Shown: in pieces, positions 3,030-14,827 of the stretch
Layout of the letters: every line of letters begins with the position of its first letter
Position numbering within the stretch: position 1 is the stretch's first letter
NCBI GenBank assembly: GCA_012514635.1
Contig: JAAYZX010000039.1
Span: forward strand, 1-42,420
DNA from: Actinomycetota bacterium
GTDB taxonomy: Bacteria > Actinomycetota > Thermoleophilia > RBG-16-64-13
Reading direction: 5' to 3'
DNA: 42,420 bases
Notes under the pieces: generated by a model
What the model was told of the DNA's origin: nothing
Seen by the model: the letters and a program-made list of their open reading frames with translations, nothing else
The model's database searches: none
Translations under genes and position numbers: made by a program

Positions 3030-3980
3030 CTACTTGCCCTTGACGGCCTCCGTAAGAACGGGAATCACATCGTAGATATCTCCAACGATGCCGTAGTCCG
3101 CGTGGTTGAAAATTAGCGCCTTGTCGTCTTTGTTGACTGCCACGATTACCTTGGATGAGCTGATGCCCACGGTATGCTGAACTTGACCGGAGATGCCGAG
3201 GCTGATGTACAGCGAGGGCTTGGTCTTGGCGCCGGAGAGGCCCACGAGACGGTTCTCGGCCAGCCATTCCCAATCGCACAGGCTCTTGGTGCACCCTAGT
3301 TCGCCGCCTAGAGCCGTGCAGAACGCCTCCACTATAGTAAGGTCATCTTTGGCACCGAGGCCGCGACCGATGCACACTAGGCGGTCGGCAGCGTCGAGGT
3401 TGACGGCTGCCCCTTCCTTGGGTTTGGTCTCGACGAGCTTCACGGCTGACGGCGTGAGGCTTAGGTCAGGAGTCACGACGGTGCCCGCGCCGGCCACCGG
3501 ATCTTCGATCTCGAAGGCCTTGGGCATTACGGCGAATACCTTGATGTCGGTGTCTACAGTTTCGCGGGCCACGGTAGCTCCGCCGAACTTGAAGCGGGCC
3601 GCAACAAGCTTACCGTCCTCCAATTCCACAGAGTTGACGTCGGTGACGGCTCCTGCTCCGAGTTTTTGAGCGAGGCGACCGGCCAGCTCTTTTCCGCGAC
3701 GGGTGGAACCGACCATGACGTACGTAGCATCGGCTTCCTTGGCAATCTTGGCCAGGGCGTCGGATACGACATCGGTCTGGAGTCCTTCGAGTGCGGCATC
3801 TTTGCTCACGAACACACGGTCGGCACCGAAGGCACCGAGTTGTGCGGCGGTTTCGTCGGCATCGGCGCCCAGCGCCGCAGCAGAGATCCCCATGCCCAGG
3901 GCGGCTGCAAATTCCTTGCCCTTGAAGGCGAGTTCTTTGGCGGTGTTGAGTGAATCGCTGTATACGAGGATATCTGCCAT
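3030..3980 (-). CDS. fixB: electron transfer flavoprotein alpha subunit, FixB type
   Basis: This is the large ETF subunit (316 residues). The N-terminal half is the ETF alpha/beta domain and the C-terminal half (about residues 190-316) is the FAD-binding domain. In the C-terminal part VCIGRGLGAKDD, LVGLSGAKTKP, YISLGISGQVQHTVGI and VNKDDKALIFNHADYGIVGD are typical FAD contacts. In FixABCX-type complexes FixB shuttles an electron from the bifurcating FAD of FixA to the quinone side. It is the last gene of the fixCXAB order. The ATG at 3978-3980 is 2 bases after the fixA stop, with GGAGG inside the fixA terminus. Confidence 0.95.
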   Translation of the reverse strand: MADILVYSDSLNTAKELAFKGKEFAAALGMGISAAALGADADETAAQLGAFGADRVFVSKDAALEGLQTDVVSDALAKIAKEADATYVMVGSTRRGKELAGRLAQKLGAGAVTDVNSVELEDGKLVAARFKFGGATVARETVDTDIKVFAVMPKAFEIEDPVAGAGTVVTPDLSLTPSAVKLVETKPKEGAAVNLDAADRLVCIGRGLGAKDDLTIVEAFCTALGGELGCTKSLCDWEWLAENRLVGLSGAKTKPSLYISLGISGQVQHTVGISSSKVIVAVNKDDKALIFNHADYGIVGDIYDVIPVLTEAVKGK

Positions 3981-3982
3981 GA

Positions 3983-4765
3983 TTACGCCTCCAGGACGCC
4001 TTCGCGGGTCAGGGCATCGATGAGCGCCGCGACCTGCGCGTTGACGTCCCCTTCCAGCATAATGTTCTTGCGATCCTGCTCCTCGGCCAGATTCGAGAGA
4101 ATCTTGTTCTTAGGAGCCACGTCCGCCGCTTCCAAGCCGAGGTCGGCCAAGGTCCAATCGGTGGAGGGCTTCTTGCCTGCCTTCATGATGTTCATGAGGG
4201 TGGGTATCCGGGGTTCATTAATCTCACTGGCAACAGTGATTACTATAGGCAGCGGGGCCTCGAGCACCTCTATGAAATCTCCCATGCTGCGCTCGGCCTG
4301 TATGCCGGGGCCGCCGGGGGTCAGCTTCCTAGCGAAGCCGATCTCGGGAACTCCGAGCAACTCCGCAACACGTGGACCCACTTGGCCGGAATAGCCGTCA
4401 TGGGAACCCTCTCCAAAGATTATGACGTCTGCGCCACCGATTGTTTCGATGGCCTTGGCGATGGCTAGGGCCTTGCCTGCCTGGTCTGTATCGACGAGCG
4501 CATCGTCAGTAACGATATAGGCTTCGTCGGCGCCCATGGCCAGAGCTTCCTTCATAGTGTCCTTGATCTTGCGGTTGCCCTGGTTCAAGGTCAACGCGAT
4601 TACCTGCGTATCGCCGGCCTCGGCCTGCAACTGAAGGGCGGCCTCCACGGCGTTCTTGTCTAGGTCCCCCAATATATAAGGGACGGCCTCGAGCACCGGC
4701 TGACGGTTCTTGATGCGGACCATTTGAAGGTCCGGATTTGTTTTGACGGGTACGATGATCTTCAA
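3983..4765 (-). CDS. fixA: electron transfer flavoprotein beta subunit, FixA type
   Basis: This is the ETF beta subunit (260 residues). It begins KIIVPVKTNPDLQMVRI, and VLGDLDKN-like and ALAMGADEAY segments follow, as usual for the family. The segment after residue 115 (GGADVIIFGEGSHDGYSGQVGPRVAELLG) is the nucleotide-binding part. In FixABCX and other bifurcating ETFs this subunit holds the bifurcating FAD and the NADH site. The start is TTG at 4763-4765, chosen because GAGGAG lies just upstream and the homologous N-terminus begins here. The longer open frame would run into fixX. It lies 11 bases after fixX and 2 bases before fixB. Confidence 0.94.
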   Translation of the reverse strand: MKIIVPVKTNPDLQMVRIKNRQPVLEAVPYILGDLDKNAVEAALQLQAEAGDTQVIALTLNQGNRKIKDTMKEALAMGADEAYIVTDDALVDTDQAGKALAIAKAIETIGGADVIIFGEGSHDGYSGQVGPRVAELLGVPEIGFARKLTPGGPGIQAERSMGDFIEVLEAPLPIVITVASEINEPRIPTLMNIMKAGKKPSTDWTLADLGLEAADVAPKNKILSNLAEEQDRKNIMLEGDVNAQVAALIDALTREGVLEA

Positions 4766-4776
4766 GGTTGGCTCCT

Positions 4777-5058
4777 CTAAGCACTCCGGTACTGGATGCC
4801 GAACTCGCCTCGTGGGTACTCCCACGAGAGCGCGTCGTGTTCACAGCAGATCAAGCAGGTGCCGCATTCCAGACAGCCCTCCCAGTCCACCGTGTTGTTG
4901 CCCTGGTCGTCCAGCTTGTAGAGGAACGCAGGGCAGATATAGAGGCAGGTCTTGTCCTTGCAGATCTTATTGCAGATCTCAGTATCAATGACAATGTGGC
5001 GCTCTTTGTCAATCTTGAATACGTTGTAACCGAGTTTGGCTTCGACTGTTGTTCCCAT
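4777..5058 (-). CDS. fixX: FixX ferredoxin-like protein
   Basis: This 93-residue iron-sulphur protein partners FixC, which itself lacks a cluster domain. Cysteines fall in two groups: C29, C33, C38 and C42 (ending ICPAF), and C62, C65, C68 and C71/C72 (EGCLECGTC), enough for two [4Fe-4S] clusters. In bifurcating FixABCX, FixX is the low-potential branch element next to ferredoxin or flavodoxin. I chose the ATG at 5056-5058 because AGGTGG is 5 bases upstream. A GTG three codons earlier has a poorly spaced site. Confidence 0.94.
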   Translation of the reverse strand: MGTTVEAKLGYNVFKIDKERHIVIDTEICNKICKDKTCLYICPAFLYKLDDQGNNTVDWEGCLECGTCLICCEHDALSWEYPRGEFGIQYRSA

Positions 5059-5072
5059 ATACGCCACCTACC

Positions 5073-6359
5073 TCATATCTTCCGCATGCCGAGCAGTTCT
5101 TTCGCCGTAGTGACGTTCATGAAGTCCTTCTTCACGCTACTCATCACTTTGGTGTAGATGCTGTCGGTCGGTTGGTCGTTCAATGTGAAGACCCGATCAA
5201 ACAACCGGCCCACGGCATTCGGGTAGTGGGAAAAAATGCGGGGATTCTCGATGAAGTGCAGTATGTTTTTCGCGGTTTCGAAGTCCTTGAGTACCCACGA
5301 TTCCTTCATCATCTTCTCGTATGCAGGTCCAACCGCGTCCAGATCGTTCTGCTTCTTGCCCTCGATAATAGCCTGCGCGGCGTAGTATCCGGAGGCTACC
5401 GCAAAGTCCATACCGCGAACCGTGTAAAGCTGGTTCAAAGCAAGGCCCGCAGCGTCGCCGGTCATGAGATAGCCGTCTCCCCATAGCTGAGGGATCCCGG
5501 ACAGACCGGCTTCAGAGATGACGTGGGCTGAATATTCCACTAGTTCACCATCCGCCACCAGCGGAGCGATGGTGGGGTTGGCCTTGAAATCGTCCAAGAG
5601 GGTATAGATATCGATCTTGTCAACCCTCTCCTTGGCGTCCTTCATCCCCAACACGATACCTAAGGATATGGACTCCTTGTTTGTGTAGAGGAAACCGCCG
5701 CCCAGCATGCCTTTAGTGACACCGCCCATGAATAGATGGGCCGCTCCCTCGTCGGGGGCGAGATGCCAGCGGTTATCAATGACTTCTTTTGGCAGTTCCA
5801 AGGTCTCTTTGAAACCTACTGCATGGTCCTTCCACGAGGGAAGTTCTCTGAGGCCCGCTTTGTTTGCCACAAGACCGAGTACGCCTTCAGCGATGATGGT
5901 GATATCAGCACCGATCTCGTCCTCGCCGGCCCGGATCCCTATGACTTTGTCACCTTCTTTGATCAGATCGTCAACACGTTGCTTGACGATGACCATGCCG
6001 CCCTTTTCCATGACCTGCTCAGACAGCCATAGATCGAACGTAGCCCGGAGGACCGTATAGGACTGGTACGGCTGGGCGGCGAATTTGTCGGCGGCAAATT
6101 CGATGGTAGTGCTGTTACCTTCCCCCATGAGTGTGATGAACTCCCGTGTTACCGGGCGCTCAAAGGGAGCGTCTTCCCACAGTTCGGGGTACATGTTACG
6201 GATTGGGCTTACGTAGAGGCGCCCTCCCGTGACGTTTTTGGCCCCGGAGTAATCGCCCCGCTCGATGAGGATGACCTCCAGACCCTCTGCCGCCAGCCCA
6301 TATGCAGCGGATAGCCCGGCCAGGCCACCACCAACAACAATGACATCGACCTTTTCCAT
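5073..6359 (-). CDS. fixC: FixC, ETF:quinone oxidoreductase-like flavoprotein
   Basis: This 428-residue FAD protein has exactly the length of E. coli FixC. The dinucleotide-binding fold is at the N-terminus (VVGGGLAGLSAAYGLA, then the ERG end of strand 2 near residue 35). A later GDGYLMTGDAAGL segment is the second FAD contact. It resembles ETF-ubiquinone oxidoreductase without the C-terminal cluster domain, which FixX supplies. Its role is to pass the high-potential electrons of FixAB to quinone at the membrane. It is preceded by a long hairpin (6377-6414) and followed by fixX after 14 bases. Confidence 0.95.
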   Translation of the reverse strand: MEKVDVIVVGGGLAGLSAAYGLAAEGLEVILIERGDYSGAKNVTGGRLYVSPIRNMYPELWEDAPFERPVTREFITLMGEGNSTTIEFAADKFAAQPYQSYTVLRATFDLWLSEQVMEKGGMVIVKQRVDDLIKEGDKVIGIRAGEDEIGADITIIAEGVLGLVANKAGLRELPSWKDHAVGFKETLELPKEVIDNRWHLAPDEGAAHLFMGGVTKGMLGGGFLYTNKESISLGIVLGMKDAKERVDKIDIYTLLDDFKANPTIAPLVADGELVEYSAHVISEAGLSGIPQLWGDGYLMTGDAAGLALNQLYTVRGMDFAVASGYYAAQAIIEGKKQNDLDAVGPAYEKMMKESWVLKDFETAKNILHFIENPRIFSHYPNAVGRLFDRVFTLNDQPTDSIYTKVMSSVKKDFMNVTTAKELLGMRKI

Positions 6360-6376
6360 ACGTCCTTCCTTGCCCG

Positions 6377-6414
6377 ACCGGCGCCGTCTTCGCTGTAGCG
6401 AAGACGGCGCCGGT
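6377..6414 (-). repeat. 17-bp perfect hairpin between acyl-CoA dehydrogenase and fixC
   Basis: Arms at 6377-6393 and 6398-6414 are fully complementary around a TGTA loop. Flanking GCCCGACC (6372-6379) and GGTCGGGC (6417-6424) sequences could extend the fold. It lies inside the operon, 18 bases upstream of the fixC ATG on the transcript, with no T-run. It could partly terminate transcription, or stabilise the upstream message so that dehydrogenase and fix levels differ. Confidence 0.6.
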
Positions 6415-6446
6415 GTGGTCGGGCTACATCACTTGTTTAGTCGAAC

Positions 6447-7673
6447 TCAGTCCTTGAACGAGTTGAACTCGTCGCCGAACTCATCGCGGCAGATGATTCC
6501 GCGCATGATGTTGAGACCGCCTTCAGCGCCCACTTCGTAGGACATGATGCCGCGGAGCATCATCTCCAGCGGGGTGTCCTTGGTGTAGCCGAAGCCGCCG
6601 TGGTAGATCATGCCGTGACGGGCAATATCGTGGCCCAGGGTTGGTGACAGGCACTTGCACGTAGCGACAACTTTGTTGAGTTCTCCACGGGAGAACGTGC
6701 CGGGGTTGGCATCATTGTAGCCGTACATCCAGGCGGCACGGGTCAGGTTCAGCCGGAGCATGTCGAGCTGCATCCAGTCGTTCGTCATCTCAAAGCTGAT
6801 GCCCTGGTTCTTGGAGATGGGCTTACCGAAGAGTACGCGCTGCTTGCAGTAGTCGCGGGAGATCTCCAGCGCCTTCTCAGCGCCACCCAGGCAGGCTGCT
6901 GCCACGATGATACGAGCGGCATTGAAGCCGTCCATATTCACGTAGAAGCCCTTGCCCTCTTCACCCAGCAGGCACCACTTCGGAACCTTGGCGTCCTTAT
7001 AGATGAAGCCGCCGGTGGAGAGCCCCATCCGGCCCATATCCTTGTAGAGGTGGTCGGAGATGCCGGGGATGTCACGCGGCACGTAGATGAAGCTGAAGCC
7101 CTGATAGCCGGCCTCGGGGTCGGTGCGGGAAAGCGTGCAGTGGCCTGACGGGTAGCCCCACTTAGCACATTCCTTGGGGCCGGAGATGTAGGCCTTCTCG
7201 CCGTTGAAGACGTAGTTATCGCCTTCGGGCAGGGAGATGGTGGTGATGTTGGCCAGGTCAGAGCCGCCACCGGGTTCAGTGGTATTGATACCGCAGAAGC
7301 ACCTGCCTTCGGCAACCTTGGGGAGAACCAGTTCCTTGAGCTGCTCAGTGCCGTACTTATTGATGATGTACGCCCAGCCGATGGTCAGCAGTGTGTAGAC
7401 CGGGGTGGACATGGACATGTCGGCACGCGCGATCTCGTGAATGGTGATCATCGCGTAGACCATGCGTTCTTCGTCCGGAATATCCAGACCGCCGAGGCGC
7501 TCGGGAATGGTCACGCCGAACATGCCAAGCGATGCCATACCTTCGGTGATGTCGGTGGGGATGCCGTCTTCAGCTTCGTCGATACCGCGTGCGCGGGGCT
7601 CCAGGTTGGCTTCGAGCCATTGGCGGATAGACTGACGGTAGAGATCCTGTTCGGGGGTAAACCTGAAATCCAT
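6447..7673 (-). CDS. acyl-CoA dehydrogenase
   Basis: This is a full-length acyl-CoA dehydrogenase family flavoenzyme (408 residues). The N-terminal helical domain begins at MDFRFTPEQ. The middle beta domain has GINTTEPGGGSDLANI, which contacts the FAD flavin. The C-terminal helical domain includes HGGFGYTKDTPLE. Aligning the end with the usual YEGTSEIQR places a Glu at residue 384 (AEGGLNIMR) as the likely catalytic base. Direct coupling to fixCXAB and to a CaiB-type transferase resembles CaiA of carnitine metabolism, but the substrate cannot be read from the sequence. TAGGAGGAG precedes the ATG. Confidence 0.93.
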   Translation of the reverse strand: MDFRFTPEQDLYRQSIRQWLEANLEPRARGIDEAEDGIPTDITEGMASLGMFGVTIPERLGGLDIPDEERMVYAMITIHEIARADMSMSTPVYTLLTIGWAYIINKYGTEQLKELVLPKVAEGRCFCGINTTEPGGGSDLANITTISLPEGDNYVFNGEKAYISGPKECAKWGYPSGHCTLSRTDPEAGYQGFSFIYVPRDIPGISDHLYKDMGRMGLSTGGFIYKDAKVPKWCLLGEEGKGFYVNMDGFNAARIIVAAACLGGAEKALEISRDYCKQRVLFGKPISKNQGISFEMTNDWMQLDMLRLNLTRAAWMYGYNDANPGTFSRGELNKVVATCKCLSPTLGHDIARHGMIYHGGFGYTKDTPLEMMLRGIMSYEVGAEGGLNIMRGIICRDEFGDEFNSFKD

Positions 7674-7778
7674 CTACTCCTCCTACTGCCTAGTGCGTTT
7701 TCCGGGTTGACGTTGACGTCCAACGATGCCCGGCTGATGCCTTGATAGTGGGCCTGGTTGCGACAAGTGCTTAGTTTC

Positions 7779-8966
7779 CTAGATCACCCCCTCTGAGCGC
7801 AAGACCCTTATTTCCTCTTTGGTATGGCCGAACTCGCCGAGCACCTCTTCCGTGTGTTCTCCTAGGAGCGGAGGGTGTCTTCGGTAGCTGACCGGGTTGT
7901 CGCTGAGTTTGATGGCGTTGCCCGCCATGCGTACTTCACCAAGTGTGGGGTGCGGCATGGTGACAAGCATCTCCCGCGCAAGGATCTGCGGGTCCGAGAA
8001 CACTTGGTCAATGCTCTGTATAGGGTCCGTCGGCACTTTGGCCTGGCTGAGGATTTGCAGCCACTCAGCTGTTGGCCGAGTGCGGAATTTCTCGGTAAGA
8101 GCGGCGACCAGAGCGTCGCGGTTCTGGATGCGCAGATCATTGGTGGCGTAGCGAGGATCTTCCGCGAGCAGTGGAGCGCCAATAGCATCACATAAGCGGG
8201 CAAACTGGTCGTTGTTGCCTACTGCCACGTTGAACCACCCGTCCATAGACCGGAAGGTCTGGTATGGCACGACGTTGGGGTTGGCATTGCCCCATCGTTG
8301 CGGCACCATGCCGCCCATCAGCCAGTTGCTTCCCTGATTCACCAGAGCTGAGACCTCTGCATCCAGCAACGATACGTCCACAAGTTGACCCCGCCCCGTG
8401 GCTTCGCGCACGCGCAACGCGCTGAAGACGCCGACTGCGGCATTGAGTGCGGCCAGCACATCGATGACGGGAAGACCCACTTTGGTGGGCGGCCCGTCGG
8501 GTTGTCCGGTGATGCTCATGTAGCCCCCGCGGCCCTGGATGGCAAAATCGTATCCCGGCTTGTTTTTGTCGGGCCCGGTGCGACCGTAGCCGCTTATAGA
8601 GCAGTAGATCAAGGCGGGATTCTCCCGACTCAAGTCCTCATATCCCAACCCGGCCCGCTCGAGGTCGCCGGTTTTGAAGTTCTCAATGATGACGTCTACC
8701 TCTCGTGCCATCCTCCGGAGTACTTGTTTGCCGGCCGGGCTCTTGAAGTTCAAAGACAGGGAGCGCTTGTTGCGATTCAACCCAAGGTAGTAGACGGACT
8801 CGGTACCTGCGTAAGGAGGGCCCCAGTGCCGTACCTCATCTCCGCTTCCGGGACGTTCCACCTTGATGATGTCTGCGCCGAGGTCGCCCAGGATCATGGC
8901 ACATGTAGGACCTGCAACTACTCGCGAAAGGTCGAGAACCTTTATGTCTTCCAGCACTCCCGGCAT
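7779..8966 (-). CDS. family III CoA-transferase (CaiB/BaiF type)
   Basis: This 395-residue family III acyl-CoA transferase moves CoA between carboxylic acids through an aspartyl-CoA anhydride. The N-terminal LEDIKVLDLSRVVAGP, ILGDLGADIIKVE and NRNKRSLSLN blocks are standard. The catalytic Asp is D140 in GYDFAIQGRGG. I chose the ATG at 8964-8966, where homology begins and GAGG lies upstream; a longer open frame adds about 53 unrelated residues. It is the first gene of the acyl-CoA block and probably activates the substrate of the following dehydrogenase. It could equally serve another acid (formyl-CoA, succinyl-CoA or carnitine type). Confidence 0.92.
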   Translation of the reverse strand: MPGVLEDIKVLDLSRVVAGPTCAMILGDLGADIIKVERPGSGDEVRHWGPPYAGTESVYYLGLNRNKRSLSLNFKSPAGKQVLRRMAREVDVIIENFKTGDLERAGLGYEDLSRENPALIYCSISGYGRTGPDKNKPGYDFAIQGRGGYMSITGQPDGPPTKVGLPVIDVLAALNAAVGVFSALRVREATGRGQLVDVSLLDAEVSALVNQGSNWLMGGMVPQRWGNANPNVVPYQTFRSMDGWFNVAVGNNDQFARLCDAIGAPLLAEDPRYATNDLRIQNRDALVAALTEKFRTRPTAEWLQILSQAKVPTDPIQSIDQVFSDPQILAREMLVTMPHPTLGEVRMAGNAIKLSDNPVSYRRHPPLLGEHTEEVLGEFGHTKEEIRVLRSEGVI

Positions 8967-9066
8967 GTCCAGAGCCTCAGCCGTGATGGGCGAACTGACA
9001 AGCCGTGCCGCCGGCTGCACCGATGGCGTGACGTGTCGTGCGCTGGGGGACCCATAGCTGTAGAAT

Positions 9067-9091
9067 GAACGGTAGGGTGAACTGACCGTTC
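9067..9091. promoter_or_regulatory. operator-like inverted repeat upstream of the CoA-transferase
   Basis: GAACGGT (9067-9073) and ACCGTTC (9085-9091) are perfect inverted half-sites separated by 11 bases, about 100 bases upstream of the transferase start. The geometry suits a dimeric helix-turn-helix protein. The FadR-type regulator encoded at 10781 is a natural candidate, but this is inference. Confidence 0.35.
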
Positions 9092-9147
9092 TCAAGCTAC
9101 GTGTGCAGCCATCCCATAATCTCACTGCACAAAGGCGAAATCAAGGC

Positions 9148-9489
9148 TCACGGAGCCTGTGTTTCGATAACGATAGGTGATTGGTCTACGGCCTCGAAGA
9201 CACGTCGTAAGGCGAAGATGAGCGCTCCCTGGGAATGCCCGCGATATCGCCGGCGTACAAGCGATTCCATTTCCTGCCTCTCGGTGATCACGGAGCGGCC
9301 GCACAGCAATCTGGCAAGGTAGTCACGGGCCAGTTCCGTAAGCAGTGTGGAGGAGACACCGACGATCATTCCGGTCTCATCTACTTCGAGCACCACACCC
9401 ACACGAGCGTTCACCGGCTGGTGCGATACGTCGTGCGGGAGGCGTGCGTAACCGGAGAAGAGATATGTATTGATGCAAACCGACTCCAT
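9148..9489 (-). CDS. DUF3870 domain protein
   Basis: This 113-residue protein is recognised as DUF3870: an N-terminal YLFSGYARLP strand, GVVLEVDETGMIV, a TLLTELARDYLARLL helix, then VRRRYRGHSQGALIFALR. The function of this family is unknown; members often sit near amidohydrolase, CoA or hydantoinase genes. There is no signal peptide or membrane segment. The ATG at 9487-9489 has no Shine-Dalgarno sequence. A TACAAT box lies 10 bases upstream, so the transcript may be leaderless. It is upstream of, and codirectional with, the CoA-transferase, with a 181-base gap. Confidence 0.8.
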   Translation of the reverse strand: MESVCINTYLFSGYARLPHDVSHQPVNARVGVVLEVDETGMIVGVSSTLLTELARDYLARLLCGRSVITERQEMESLVRRRYRGHSQGALIFALRRVFEAVDQSPIVIETQAP

Positions 9490-9598: not shown

Positions 9599-9707
9599 AT
9601 GTCTGCTGTGAGATGTGGACAGTGGTAAGACCATAGCGTATCATGCAGTTGGCCAAAACGAGCGCCCCGGGACGAGACGCCGTCCCGGCTACCCGGAGGT
9701 TCTCTAG

Positions 9708-10772
9708 TTGTCTTTATCCGTGGGCATTGTAGGCCTGCCGAATGTGGGCAAGTCGACTCTCTTTCGTGCCCTCACCCGCCAACAGGTTGCCGCTTCCAAC
9801 TACCCGTTCTGCACCATCGACCCCAATGTGGGAGTCGTCCCCGTACCGGATTCTCGACTGGACCGAATCAACGAGATTGTGAGACCTGAGCGATTGGTCC
9901 CCGCGGTGGTTGAGTTTGTGGACATCGCGGGCTTGGTGAAGGGAGCTAGTCGTGGTGAAGGGTTGGGCAACCAGTTTCTGGCGCACATCCGGGAGTGCGA
10001 CGCCATCTGTGAGGTGCTTCGTGCGTTTGGTGATCCTGATGTGGCCCATGTGGAGGGCCGGATTGACCCTGTCTCCGATGCGGATACCGTGCTGACAGAG
10101 CTCATTCTGGCAGACATGGCTACCGTAGAGAAAGCTTTGGGGCGCGCACGCAAAGAAGCTCAGGGTTCAAAAGAAATGCGCCCGTTCCTGGAAGCCCTGG
10201 AGTTGGTGGATGTCACCCTGGCGGAGGGTCGTCCGGTGCGGGAGGCGGGTTTGGACGCGCAACAGCTGTCCTTGGTGCGTGGACTTCATCTGCTGACACA
10301 GAAACCTCTCATCTACGTGCTCAACGTGGACGAGGAGCCCGTGGGCGTGACCGTGAATTTAGTCCCCGGTGTGGAAACTGTACCCATATGCGCCAAGCTC
10401 GAGGCGGAACTTGCCGATTTGGAGGAGTCGGATAGAGAAGAGTTTCTTCAGGAGCTCGGGATCGGTGCGTCCGGCTTGGATCGGCTGGTGAAGTCTTGCT
10501 ATCGGTTGCTTGGTCTTATCACGTTCTTTACCGCCCAAAGCAATGAGGCTCGCGCCTGGACGGTACGTGAAGGTACTAAAGCACCCCAGGCCGCAGGGAC
10601 TATTCATTCTGATTTCGAGCGCGGCTTCATCAAGGCTGAAGTAGTGGATTTTGAGACGTTGGACATCTTGGGCTCGGACCAAGCGGTGAAGGCGGCCGGG
10701 CGCATGAGGATCGAGGGCAAGGAGTATGTTGTTCGAGACGGTGACGTGATTCATTTCCGCTTCAATGTATAG
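9708..10772 (+). CDS. ychF: YchF/OLA1-family P-loop ATPase/GTPase
   Basis: This is the universally conserved ribosome-associated TRAFAC-class NTPase (354 residues). The P-loop GLPNVGKST is at residues 9-17, with switch elements NYPFCTIDPNVG and DIAGLVKGAS. In place of NKxD it has NVDE, the change that makes YchF prefer ATP. The C-terminal TGS domain runs through TIHSDFERGFIKAEVV. The start is TTG at 9708-9710 with GGAGG 8 bases upstream. It is followed 8 bases later by the FadR-HAD gene and is probably cotranscribed with it. Confidence 0.96.
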   Translation: MSLSVGIVGLPNVGKSTLFRALTRQQVAASNYPFCTIDPNVGVVPVPDSRLDRINEIVRPERLVPAVVEFVDIAGLVKGASRGEGLGNQFLAHIRECDAICEVLRAFGDPDVAHVEGRIDPVSDADTVLTELILADMATVEKALGRARKEAQGSKEMRPFLEALELVDVTLAEGRPVREAGLDAQQLSLVRGLHLLTQKPLIYVLNVDEEPVGVTVNLVPGVETVPICAKLEAELADLEESDREEFLQELGIGASGLDRLVKSCYRLLGLITFFTAQSNEARAWTVREGTKAPQAAGTIHSDFERGFIKAEVVDFETLDILGSDQAVKAAGRMRIEGKEYVVRDGDVIHFRFNV

Positions 10773-10780
10773 GGGGTTGT

Positions 10781-12355
10781 GTGGGCCGGGCCAGTGACCA
10801 CAAAGACGAGAAGTTCAAAATCAAGCCGGTTACCACCGAGACCGTCTCGAGCCAAGTAGCGCGTCAGTTAAAGAAGCTGCTGACGTCGGGAGAGGTTTCG
10901 CCCGGTGAACGCATACCATCTGAACGTGAGCTGGCGACCCGTTTTGGAGTAGGTCGCCCGGCGGTGCGCGAGGCACTGCGCGAGCTCAAAGCGCAGGGAT
11001 TGCTTATCAGCGGCCGAGGACCGCGCGGCACGATCGTGGCGGCTGTTCCCGGGGGAGAAGTGGGTGCCACATTGCGCAATCTGGCGGGCAGTGGTGCGGA
11101 GCGGCTGGTGGAGTTGATGGAACTGCGGGTGGCGGTGGAAGTACAGGCTGCCGGGTTGGCGGCTCGGCGCGCGACCCTCGATGAGATAAGGCGTATGGCG
11201 CGTATCCAGGTGGACCTTCGGGAGTCGGACCACGCTGAAAGTGACGTGGCGTTCCATCGTCTGGTTGCTGAGTCTGCTCACAACGTCCTTCTGAAAAGAC
11301 TGGCCATGGAGCTTGTTGGACTGCTTCACGAACATATGCCGCGCATTCTCGATGTTCTTTATACACAGCCGGGAGGTGCGGGAGCTGTACAGCGGCAGCA
11401 CGATGTGGTGTTGGAAGCCATACGACGTGGCGATGAATCGAGCGCCCGTCGCGCGATGCGTCAACACCTGGACTATGTGACGATCGGCCTTGCGCAGCTG
11501 GCCGGTTCTATTCCGCCAATCAGGTTGGTCATCGCCGATCTTGATGGCACCTTGTTGGCTGGGCCGCGGCATCTTTCGAGGCGTACCCGGAATGTGGTGG
11601 CCACCGTGAGGGAGGCGGGTGCGGAGGTGGTTCTGGCCTCGGCCCGCGCGCCGAGGCTGATGCGCCTGTATCACGAGGAGCTGCAGCTTTCGGCTCCGGT
11701 CATTGCATGCAACGGAGCTTTGCTCTGGGACATGCTGGCCAATGTTCCGATGAGTCGGATACCTCTCAGTCCCACTCTCGCGCGCGAGGCGGTGGCGGTG
11801 GCCAGGGAGGCGGGTGCCATCGCCAACGTGGAATGCGATGACGAATGGTTTGCCGACCGGATTACTGAGGCCGTCCTACATAACATCCAGCAGTATGGGA
11901 TCGCCCCGCCACATCAGGTGGGCGGAGTTGATGACGTCCTCACCGGCGACAGACCTATCGATAAGGTGTTCTTGGATATGCGGGAGTTGCCACCGGCAAC
12001 TCAGGAAACACTACGTACGGCGCTGAGTCGATCATTGGGAGCGCATGTCAATCTGAACGAGAGTGTGCGCGGCATGATAGATGTGACCTCTTTAGAGGCC
12101 AGCAAAGCGGCGATGGCTCAGCAACTGGCACGCATGCTCGGTGTACCGGCGGAGCAGGTTCTGGCCATAGGAGATGGCGACAACGATGTGGCGCTGTTGC
12201 GCTGGGCAGGCGTCGGTGTTGCTATGGGCAACGCCTCTCCAGCCGCCAAGGGGGCCGCCGATGCCGTCACCTCCTCCGATCTGCGCGATGGGGCGGCTGA
12301 AGCCATGCAGCGTTGGGTGCTGGAGCGTCCGGCCAACCGTCTCGAGCAGCATTAG
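10781..12355 (+). CDS. FadR/GntR-type regulator fused to a HAD (Cof-type) phosphatase
   Basis: One uninterrupted frame of 524 residues joins two families. Residues about 20-88 are a GntR winged helix-turn-helix (IPSERELATRFGVGRPAVREAL). Residues about 100-240 are the all-helical FCD effector domain of FadR-like regulators, with candidate metal ligands D155, H159, H207 and H229. Residues about 246-515 are a class IIB HAD hydrolase with all motifs: DLDGT (nucleophile D253, acid D255), S287, K442 and GDGDND at 464-469. GntR members normally end after the FCD. A sensor domain gating DNA binding, fused to a sugar-phosphate-type phosphatase, suggests a regulator that also removes its own effector or a related metabolite. 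The start is GTG, 8 bases after the ychF stop. The domain calls are firm; the combined role is inference. Confidence 0.9.
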   Translation: MGRASDHKDEKFKIKPVTTETVSSQVARQLKKLLTSGEVSPGERIPSERELATRFGVGRPAVREALRELKAQGLLISGRGPRGTIVAAVPGGEVGATLRNLAGSGAERLVELMELRVAVEVQAAGLAARRATLDEIRRMARIQVDLRESDHAESDVAFHRLVAESAHNVLLKRLAMELVGLLHEHMPRILDVLYTQPGGAGAVQRQHDVVLEAIRRGDESSARRAMRQHLDYVTIGLAQLAGSIPPIRLVIADLDGTLLAGPRHLSRRTRNVVATVREAGAEVVLASARAPRLMRLYHEELQLSAPVIACNGALLWDMLANVPMSRIPLSPTLAREAVAVAREAGAIANVECDDEWFADRITEAVLHNIQQYGIAPPHQVGGVDDVLTGDRPIDKVFLDMRELPPATQETLRTALSRSLGAHVNLNESVRGMIDVTSLEASKAAMAQQLARMLGVPAEQVLAIGDGDNDVALLRWAGVGVAMGNASPAAKGAADAVTSSDLRDGAAEAMQRWVLERPANRLEQH

Positions 12356-12370
12356 CAACCAGGGGTGGGG

Positions 12371-14827
12371 GTGAACCGGCGGCGCCTCGGTCTTGTGGAT
12401 AAGCTGTGGCGGGCGGCGGCCGCGGCCGCCGCCGACCGCGGCCGCCGCAGCCTTCCTCGCACCGACGGATCTTATATTGTGCGGGGGATCACGGCGCCGG
12501 TGGAGATTATCTGGGATAGGTGGGGCATTCCGCACATCTATGCCGGTTGTTTCGAAGACCTGATGTTTGCTCAGGGCTTCGTACATGCTCAGGACCGGCT
12601 CTGGCAGATGGACTTTCTGAGGCGTTTGGTGGCGGGTCGCTTGTCGGAGGTCTTTGGGCCGGTAACCGTGTCGCTCGATCGGTGGGTACGAATTGTAGGC
12701 CTTCGAGAGGCTGCAGAACGGCAGGAGCTGGAACTCGACGAGGGCTCTCTTTCCTATCTGCGCGCATACGCCGCCGGTGTCGATGCTTGGGTAGAGACCT
12801 CCGGCAGCCTGCCTTTGGAGTTCAGGTTGCTTCGTTACCAACCGCAGTCGTGGACTGTGGCGGACGGCTTGGGTTCAATCAAGCTCCTGGCGTGGCTTCT
12901 CTCCAGCAACTGGGAGGTTGAGTTGTTACGTGAGCAGCTGGTCCGGCGCCTGGGAGACGTAGCTGCAGAGTTGGAGCCGAGGGCGGCAGAGGACACCTGC
13001 ATCGTTGCCTTACCGGGCTCTCGTGCCGCCCTAGAACGTGCCCGCAAAGCGCGGAGGTTCCTTGGGCCTGGAGTCGCACAGGGTGTGGGGAGCAATAGCT
13101 GGGTGGTAGCGGGGCGGTATACGGTGGGCGGAGCTCCGCTTCTGGCCAACGATATGCACCTCAGCCTGTTGCTCCCGGCGATCTGGTACCAAGTGCACCT
13201 GGTTGCGCCGGATATTGATGCGGTGGGCGTCAGCCTTCCAGGTTTGCCGTGTCTGGTGTCAGGTTTTAACGGTCGCGTGGCCTGGGGCATTACGGCCGGC
13301 ATGGTGGACGTGCAGGATCTCTACCGCGAACGTATCCGGAGCCGGATGGTCGAGGGCAAGAAGCGGGTGGAATGGTTGCATCGAGGAGAATGGCTCCCGG
13401 CACGAGTTCGTCGTGAAGAGATTCGAGTCCGTGGGCTCCCGTGGCGTGTGGTGCAGGAGGTTGTACATACCGGGCATGGCCCCGTCATCAATTTGTTGGC
13501 TCCGCGCGAGATGGGGGAGCCGTTCATGGCTTTACGATGGACGGGAAGTGAAACTGACAACGTAACTAGACTGATGCGTCGGTTGTTGTTGGTTGGTTCC
13601 GCGGAGGAGTTCCGGGAGACGCTGCGGGATTGGGCTGTACCGGCTGTCAACATGGTCTATGCGGATATCAAAGGTTCCATTGGTTACCGGCTGGCAGGAC
13701 GCATTCCGCGCAGGGCTCCAGGTAGAGGGCGCGTGCCGTGCGTGGGCTGGACCGGCACCGACGAGTGGTGTGGGTTCATACCTTTTGAGGAGCTGCCTGC
13801 GGAGGACGACCCTGAAAGTGGTTATATAGTTACGGCCAACAACCGTGTGGCTTCCACCGATTACCCCTACTATTTGGGAAATGAGTATGCCACGGACGAT
13901 CGGGCACAACGCATCGAAGAACTCCTTCTCGCCGCAGTGGGAGCAGGTCGTCCGCTGGACAAAGAGACCATGCGTGCAATACAGCTCGACCAGGTTTCAC
14001 TCACCGGTAGGGAGGTGGCCGGTCATTTCGCTCGTTTGACCGGGTCGGCACATCTGCAGAGAGGCGGTCGTCTGGTGGCAGGCTTGGCCTCTATTCTTGC
14101 CGAATGGGATGGCTCTATGAGCGCGGATAGTACTGCGGCGGCACTGTCGGAGACGTTTGTGCAGGTTTCGTTGGCGCTTATGCTGCGGAGGAGGCTCGGT
14201 CGGCTGCTGCCGCGCTACTCGGGGCAAGGACCCACTCCACTGCTGGCGGAGTGGAGCGTTTTTGGCGAGCGTGCTCGCGAGTGGTTGATGCGCTGCCTAC
14301 GAGAGACTTCATCGCCGTGGTTTGGCGTGGGTGGAGAAAATAACCGCGACCGCTTTCTTGTGCGGGCGCTGATTGTCACCGCAGCTCGGCTTTCGCTGCA
14401 GCTGGGGCCGGATCCGCGTGGCTGGACTTGGGGCAGGTTGCACACTATGTATTTCAGTCACGCACTGGGAGCTTTGCCGGGGGTCAACCGTCTCCTGGGT
14501 CGGGGTCCATATCCCGTTGGTGGTGACGAGCACACTGTGTGGGCGGTCTCCAGTCGAGGCGGCGGTCACATCCAGGGCCGTGTAGGGCCTCCCTTTCGTT
14601 TTGTCTGTGACTTGGCTTGTGGGGGGAAGGCTTGGGGCATTCTGGCTCCCGGCCAATCCGGGTGGCCGGGCAGCCCTCATTTTGACGATGGGGTCGTTGG
14701 GTGGTTTGCGGGAAGACTGCGTCCCCTCGTCCGGGAGCGTCGTGATGTGCAGCGTCATGAAGAGAGCCGCATGGAGCTGCTGCCCACGTCTCCGTTGAGG
14801 GAAGGTGTCCGCGACCGTACTGCGTAA
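12371..14827 (+). CDS. penicillin acylase family (S45) Ntn hydrolase
   Basis: This roughly 818-residue proenzyme is cleaved autocatalytically into alpha and beta chains. The N-terminal region has WDRWGIPHIYA and AQGFVHAQDRLWQMDF, typical of the alpha chain. The beta chain would start at S241 in GVGSNSWVVAG, the N-terminal nucleophile, and the later VTANNRV segment supplies the conserved Asn. The family hydrolyses amides, including penicillins, acyl-homoserine lactones and N-acyl amino acids; which one is unknown here. No signal peptide is visible. Instead the N-terminus carries an Ala run and an RGRR stretch encoded by a GC palindrome, so it may stay cytoplasmic. I chose the GTG at 12371 for AGGGG spacing; a GTG at 12365 is possible. 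Confidence 0.9.
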   Translation: MNRRRLGLVDKLWRAAAAAAADRGRRSLPRTDGSYIVRGITAPVEIIWDRWGIPHIYAGCFEDLMFAQGFVHAQDRLWQMDFLRRLVAGRLSEVFGPVTVSLDRWVRIVGLREAAERQELELDEGSLSYLRAYAAGVDAWVETSGSLPLEFRLLRYQPQSWTVADGLGSIKLLAWLLSSNWEVELLREQLVRRLGDVAAELEPRAAEDTCIVALPGSRAALERARKARRFLGPGVAQGVGSNSWVVAGRYTVGGAPLLANDMHLSLLLPAIWYQVHLVAPDIDAVGVSLPGLPCLVSGFNGRVAWGITAGMVDVQDLYRERIRSRMVEGKKRVEWLHRGEWLPARVRREEIRVRGLPWRVVQEVVHTGHGPVINLLAPREMGEPFMALRWTGSETDNVTRLMRRLLLVGSAEEFRETLRDWAVPAVNMVYADIKGSIGYRLAGRIPRRAPGRGRVPCVGWTGTDEWCGFIPFEELPAEDDPESGYIVTANNRVASTDYPYYLGNEYATDDRAQRIEELLLAAVGAGRPLDKETMRAIQLDQVSLTGREVAGHFARLTGSAHLQRGGRLVAGLASILAEWDGSMSADSTAAALSETFVQVSLALMLRRRLGRLLPRYSGQGPTPLLAEWSVFGERAREWLMRCLRETSSPWFGVGGENNRDRFLVRALIVTAARLSLQLGPDPRGWTWGRLHTMYFSHALGALPGVNRLLGRGPYPVGGDEHTVWAVSSRGGGHIQGRVGPPFRFVCDLACGGKAWGILAPGQSGWPGSPHFDDGVVGWFAGRLRPLVRERRDVQRHEESRMELLPTSPLREGVRDRTA
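12412..12433. repeat. 22-bp perfect GC palindrome inside the acylase N-terminus
   Basis: A perfect palindrome of only G and C, with a second near-copy of the right arm (CGGCCGCCG) to about 12448. It encodes a run of seven alanines and the following Arg/Gly stretch, in place of a normal signal peptide. Confidence 0.8.

Follow-up and report, generated by a model that had tools for sequence, protein, structure and literature searches.

The GntR-FCD-HAD fusion protein described here combines a FadR-type transcription factor with a complete phosphatase domain, and across its family the phosphatase half has repeatedly lost catalytic residues while the remainder of its pocket was conserved. The protein is 524 residues long and is encoded on the forward strand at positions 10781 to 12355 of the window, the whole 42,420-nucleotide stretch of DNA that we analyzed. 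Full-length homologues occur in 14 of 18 genomes, representing 10 of 12 genera, of a single family of Thermoleophilia-like Actinomycetota. Our best model, which we hold with moderate confidence, is that the protein acts as a dual-input repressor that would sense a carboxylate through its FCD domain and a phosphorylated metabolite through its HAD domain, with catalysis being dispensable.

Domain architecture of the fusion protein

The reading frame opens with a GTG codon at 10781, continues unbroken, and closes with TAG at 12353 to 12355. An earlier note on this DNA had read in this one frame a GntR winged helix, an FCD domain with the metal ligands D155, H159, H207, and H229, and a Cof-type HAD hydrolase with all of its motifs, a description that is borne out by Pfam, NCBIfam, and residue-level alignment. 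The winged helix (residues 23 to 80, positions 10847 to 11020, forward strand; PF00392, E value 6.5e-19) is followed by the FCD domain (residues 111 to 231, positions 11111 to 11473, forward strand; PF07729, E value 8.1e-21). Both matches exceed their cutoffs, and their combination is the one that characterizes GntR/FadR regulators. The four metal-site residues are unchanged in all 14 family members, as expected of this subfamily, and the histidine spacing of 48 and 22 equals that of LldR, for which the zinc site in C. glutamicum consists of H148, H196, and H218 (PMC4746285).

The Cof-type (HAD-IIB) domain spans residues 250 to 509 (positions 11528 to 12307, forward strand) and matches PF08282 (Hydrolase_3) with an E value of 1.3e-46 and 159.8 bits against a cutoff of 20.9. 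It also scores 141.3 bits against the NCBIfam Cof-subfamily model TIGR00099, for which the cutoff is 137. The residues that define motifs I to IV of Cof-type HAD-IIB proteins, D253, D255, S287, K442, D465, and D469, are all present in the window protein. On the forward strand, motif I (D253-L-D255-G-T) lies at 11537 to 11551, motif II (S287) at 11639 to 11641, motif III (K442) at 12104 to 12106, and motif IV (D465-G-D467-N468-D469) at 12173 to 12187.

Each half has well-characterized relatives. FadR/FCD regulators such as NanR, PdhR, and LldR share with the fusion the winged helix, an FCD domain with an Asp/three-His metal site, and an operator of the TGGTnnnACCA type, but they end after the FCD domain, whereas the fusion continues for about 280 residues that make up a complete HAD domain. 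Cof-type HAD-IIB phosphatases such as YidA, BT4131, and TM0651 correspond to the fusion over the whole domain, with all motifs in the window copy. However, these proteins are normally standalone, whereas the fused family shows repeated loss of motif I and of the motif IV Asn, along with a conserved cap motif, ExDDEWF. The closest solved sequence to the HAD half is YidA (1rkq; E value 1.8e-24), and those closest to the regulator half are NanR (6on4) and 9jpj, which is named pyruvate dehydrogenase complex repressor. Structural comparison gave a similar picture. An AlphaFold model of the fusion protein is of fair quality (mean pLDDT 74.8; pTM 0.53), with the mutual arrangement of the domains unsure. 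In Foldseek searches the HAD half retrieved HAD phosphatases, with TM-scores to the target mostly between 0.7 and 0.8, and the regulator half retrieved NanR/DhdR-type regulators; among the matches listed, no chain covered both halves and none was long enough to do so. In E. coli records, dgoR, which encodes an FCD regulator, and yidA, which encodes the nearest HAD relative, lie in one stretch of about 2.4 kb. These are separate genes, whereas the fusion is a single gene, and the closeness of dgoR and yidA may be coincidence.

Catalytic residues of the HAD half

Motif I (DxDGT), in which D253 is the nucleophile and D255 the acid-base residue, is intact, as DLD or DID, in eight of the 14 members, the window protein included, and damaged in the other six. 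It reads NLG in G007, the nearest relative of the window protein (72% identity), GLG in G010, GLD in G016, NLD in G003, and DLG in G005 and G017. Four species of genus g11 display four motif I states (DLD, DLG, GLD, and GLG), and on a tree built without the motif columns the intact state changes at least five times. The conservation of motif I that would be expected of a phosphatase is thus not seen in the fused family, in contrast to the standalone Cof HADs of the class, where the motif is intact in 22 of 22 proteins drawn from high-scoring matches (two belong to the window's family and 20 to other families of the class). Five other pocket positions, namely the phosphate/Mg residues S287, K442, D465, and D469 together with N484, are constant in all 14 members. 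Changed residues fill 8 of 28 cells at D253 and D255 versus 0 of 70 at these five positions (Fisher p = 2e-5, a value that ignores relatedness and uses comparison positions picked as invariant). Within motif IV the aspartates are invariant and N468 is variable, being lost in all six members with damaged motif I and in three with intact motif I (G001, G008, and G015). The N468 losses suggest that catalysis may have been given up gradually.

The remainder of the domain appears to be under strong constraint. Estimates of dN/dS for the HAD half range from about 0.04 to 0.15, comparable to those of the DNA-binding and FCD halves, and the comparison of G010 with G016, both without the nucleophile, gave 0.047, a sign of strong purifying selection; these values are rough because the synonymous sites are almost saturated. 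Members of both catalytic states share the cap motif E-x-D-D-E-W-F, with E351, D353, D354, W356, and F357 invariant and E355 nearly so. Based on these patterns, we infer that the HAD pocket is kept for binding, with catalysis optional. The fact that some relatives have lost catalytic residues yet kept the rest of the domain argues that the main role of the HAD half is probably to sense a phosphorylated metabolite, not to break it down. We give roughly even weight to a more specific proposal, namely that the fused HAD has become a noncatalytic phospho-metabolite sensor several times independently through loss of the nucleophile or acid-base residue and retention of the phosphate and Mg site, which would place family members along a graded series from enzyme-regulator to sensor. 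Changing the nucleophile of a HAD enzyme to Asn is a standard route to trapping its substrates, and the lineages with a changed motif I have made such substitutions naturally.

A bifunctional enzyme-regulator is a competing explanation that we regard as unlikely, though worth serious attention. Here the substrate hydrolyzed by the HAD domain would be a sugar phosphate, either the effector itself or a precursor of it, which would place a feedback loop within one protein, and the motif I losses would be secondary. Intact DxDGT is seen in the window protein as well as in the deepest branches (G002, G012, and G011), and five members retain the full DxD together with GDxxND. Moreover, at a threshold of E ≤ 1e-10, no PF08282 HAD other than the fused domain was detected in 12 of the 14 fusion genomes, so the fused domain could carry the YidA-like activity of these organisms. 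However, the rest of the domain has no sign of relaxed constraint in the six members that lost catalytic residues, in most of these members' genomes no other Cof HAD was seen that could supply the activity, and N468 is gone even from three members with intact DxD. The earlier note had suggested a regulator that hydrolyzes its own effector. Its two sensory halves stand, both being conserved with an operator in most relatives, whereas hydrolysis as a conserved function of the family is contradicted by the repeated loss of the catalytic aspartates in homologues. The window copy itself keeps every catalytic residue, which counts against the dual-input sensor model; because of this the window protein may be a true enzyme, and with its motifs intact, hydrolysis of the effector by this particular protein is possible.

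We consider it quite improbable that the HAD half is a structural or oligomerization module, or a decaying passenger, that binds no ligand. Such a role would suit the several lineages without catalytic Asp residues, but it is at odds with the invariance of the phosphate and Mg pocket residues and the cap motif, and with a dN/dS as low as that of the regulator half.

Distribution, operator, and gene neighborhood

The search for this architecture across genomes, which the earlier note had proposed, found both halves conserved in the 14 genomes. The other 13 homologues are 51 to 72% identical to the window protein and have the same domain order in a single frame without an internal stop. This excludes a frameshift or stop hidden near 11500, which the note had raised as a possible objection, and the shared single-frame order indicates that the fusion is old and retained. 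That two genes were joined by an error of assembly or sequencing is a negligible prospect and already refuted, since the sequences are MAG contigs but the 13 additional homologues come from separate genomes with identical frame and order. The other objection, that homologues might always be two separate genes, also fails; separate halves were seen only in genus g10, where G009 and G014 encode a lone GntR-FCD protein (43 to 44%) and G014 carries a HAD (35%) on a contig apart from its GntR-FCD gene. Outside the window's family, no full-length fusion was present in a sample of 397 actinobacterial genomes, and a pattern scan of GTDB returned full-length members of this family only; because the scan used two peptide patterns, distant fusions could have been missed. 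HAD matches in two long frames (L019 and L020) were rejected as fusions; both are standalone HADs of the usual kind, lying in open frames that are GC-rich. The half-by-half trees have long branches and recovered no firm pre-fusion sister, and it is the distribution rather than these trees that suggests a single fusion event.

A FadR/PdhR-type palindrome, TGGTnnTACC(A/T), lies over the promoter of 12 of the 14 fusion genes and conforms to the TKGT-N3-ACMA operator pattern. The palindrome is near-perfect, typically ATGGTGTTACCATC or GATGGTGTTACCATC, and mostly stands immediately before the start codon; in L012 a single base is changed, so that one arm reads ACCT. The right arm, TACCAT, is in most cases located about 7 nt ahead of the ATG and looks like the -10 element of a leaderless promoter. 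In G006, G002, and G012 the palindrome is followed by a longer leader that contains a stretch resembling a Shine-Dalgarno sequence. In G002 and G012 the fusion gene may start at a CTG behind the Shine-Dalgarno-like sequence AGGAGG (L035, about 9380 to 9420, and the same place in L036). The palindrome fits both the TKGT/ACMA boxes of the FadR subfamily (PMC4494728) and the PdhR site, ATTGGTnnnACCAAT (PMC7660256). The strict pattern WTGGTNTTACCAW gave 17 sites across 12 genomes, of which 10 are at the fusion gene, and a control pattern gave 6. With the palindrome over the promoter in 12 of 14 genes, autorepression of the fusion gene is likely and is the simplest reading.

The same scan did not reveal a wider regulon, the remaining strict sites being mostly chance-like or intragenic with two exceptions, in G003 and G006. 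These two sites share one extended motif, TGGTNTTACCATCCTACC, in L131 and L136 at about 1501 to 1520 (G006:C282 and G003:C222), between converging cobO-like and rlmN-like genes; no tRNA or Rfam family was found at these gap sites. No operator was found at the fusion gene of G007. In the window, a weak candidate operator, TGGTAAGACCA, at 9623 to 9633 between DUF3870 and ychF is plausibly positioned, but its score of 12.3 bits is at chance level and we rejected it as a clear site.

The gene directly 5' of the fusion gene is ychF (9708 to 10772, forward strand), which ends 8 nt before it. Apart from the window, only G007 has this arrangement, there with a brief overlap of the two genes, and cotranscription is probable in this lineage only. 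In both, ychF apparently takes the place of the fusion gene's own promoter and operator. Neighborhood comparison delineated a divergent block on the reverse strand (3030 to 9489) that encodes DUF3870, CoA-transferase III, acyl-CoA dehydrogenase, an ETF-QO-like protein, ETF beta, and ETF alpha. The earlier note had named this block a possible target, and as a candidate it stands in the four of 14 genomes in which it is linked to the fusion gene (G000, G007, G002, and G012; no CoA-transferase match in G007). As a general target it was rejected on the same count, and most other fusion genes adjoin nuo and tatC. The examined region contains nuoA in the window and ten other loci; at the nine that lack the acyl-CoA block, nuo genes are nearby, mostly with tatC between. 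The regulator may be linked to respiratory electron input, although this is no more than a reasonable guess. A penicillin-amidase family acylase (PF01804, E value 1e-201) lies immediately downstream of the fusion gene at 12365 to 14827. It was also proposed as a target, which we rejected because this neighbor is not conserved, none of the 13 homologous loci having a match to it.

Proposed mechanism and its meaning

In the dual-input model, a FadR-subfamily repressor in the ancestry of one actinobacterial family would have gained a YidA-like Cof-type HAD sugar phosphatase at its C terminus, which became its second sensory domain. Its winged helix is predicted to bind the TGGTnnnACCA palindrome (the TGGTGTTACCA site) over its own promoter in most relatives, by which the protein would repress its own synthesis. 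A carboxylate would be the ligand of the metal-containing FCD domain. The HAD domain would use its conserved Mg/phosphate pocket and its cap to bind a phosphorylated metabolite, and occupancy of the HAD site would modulate DNA binding. In some lineages with intact DxD, perhaps that of the window among them, the protein may hydrolyze its ligand and so reset the switch; other lineages, having lost the nucleophile, the acid-base Asp, or both, would keep binding only.

Enzymes recruited as sensors of transcription factors include the chorismate-lyase-like UTRA and ROK repressors. Such recruitment is also known for the MocR regulators GabR and PdxR, which join a GntR winged helix to an enzyme-derived sensor domain (PMC6917764, PMC6677901). 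The fusion follows similar logic, but MocR proteins carry a PLP aminotransferase fold after the winged helix, whereas in the fusion a complete FCD domain comes next and then a HAD phosphatase. Pfam detected no fold-type-I PLP aminotransferase domain in the fusion protein, so it is not a MocR member. The literature that we searched yielded nothing relevant on a GntR-FCD-HAD fusion or a HAD-based bacterial repressor, and no description of a HAD phosphatase acting as the sensor of a FadR-type regulator turned up in these papers. Each half is ordinary by itself; it is unusual for a phosphatase to have been turned in parallel into what is presumed to be a sensor inside one regulator family. Because intact and catalysis-lost members occur among close relatives, even within one genus, the origin of a sensor by switching off catalysis is directly testable.
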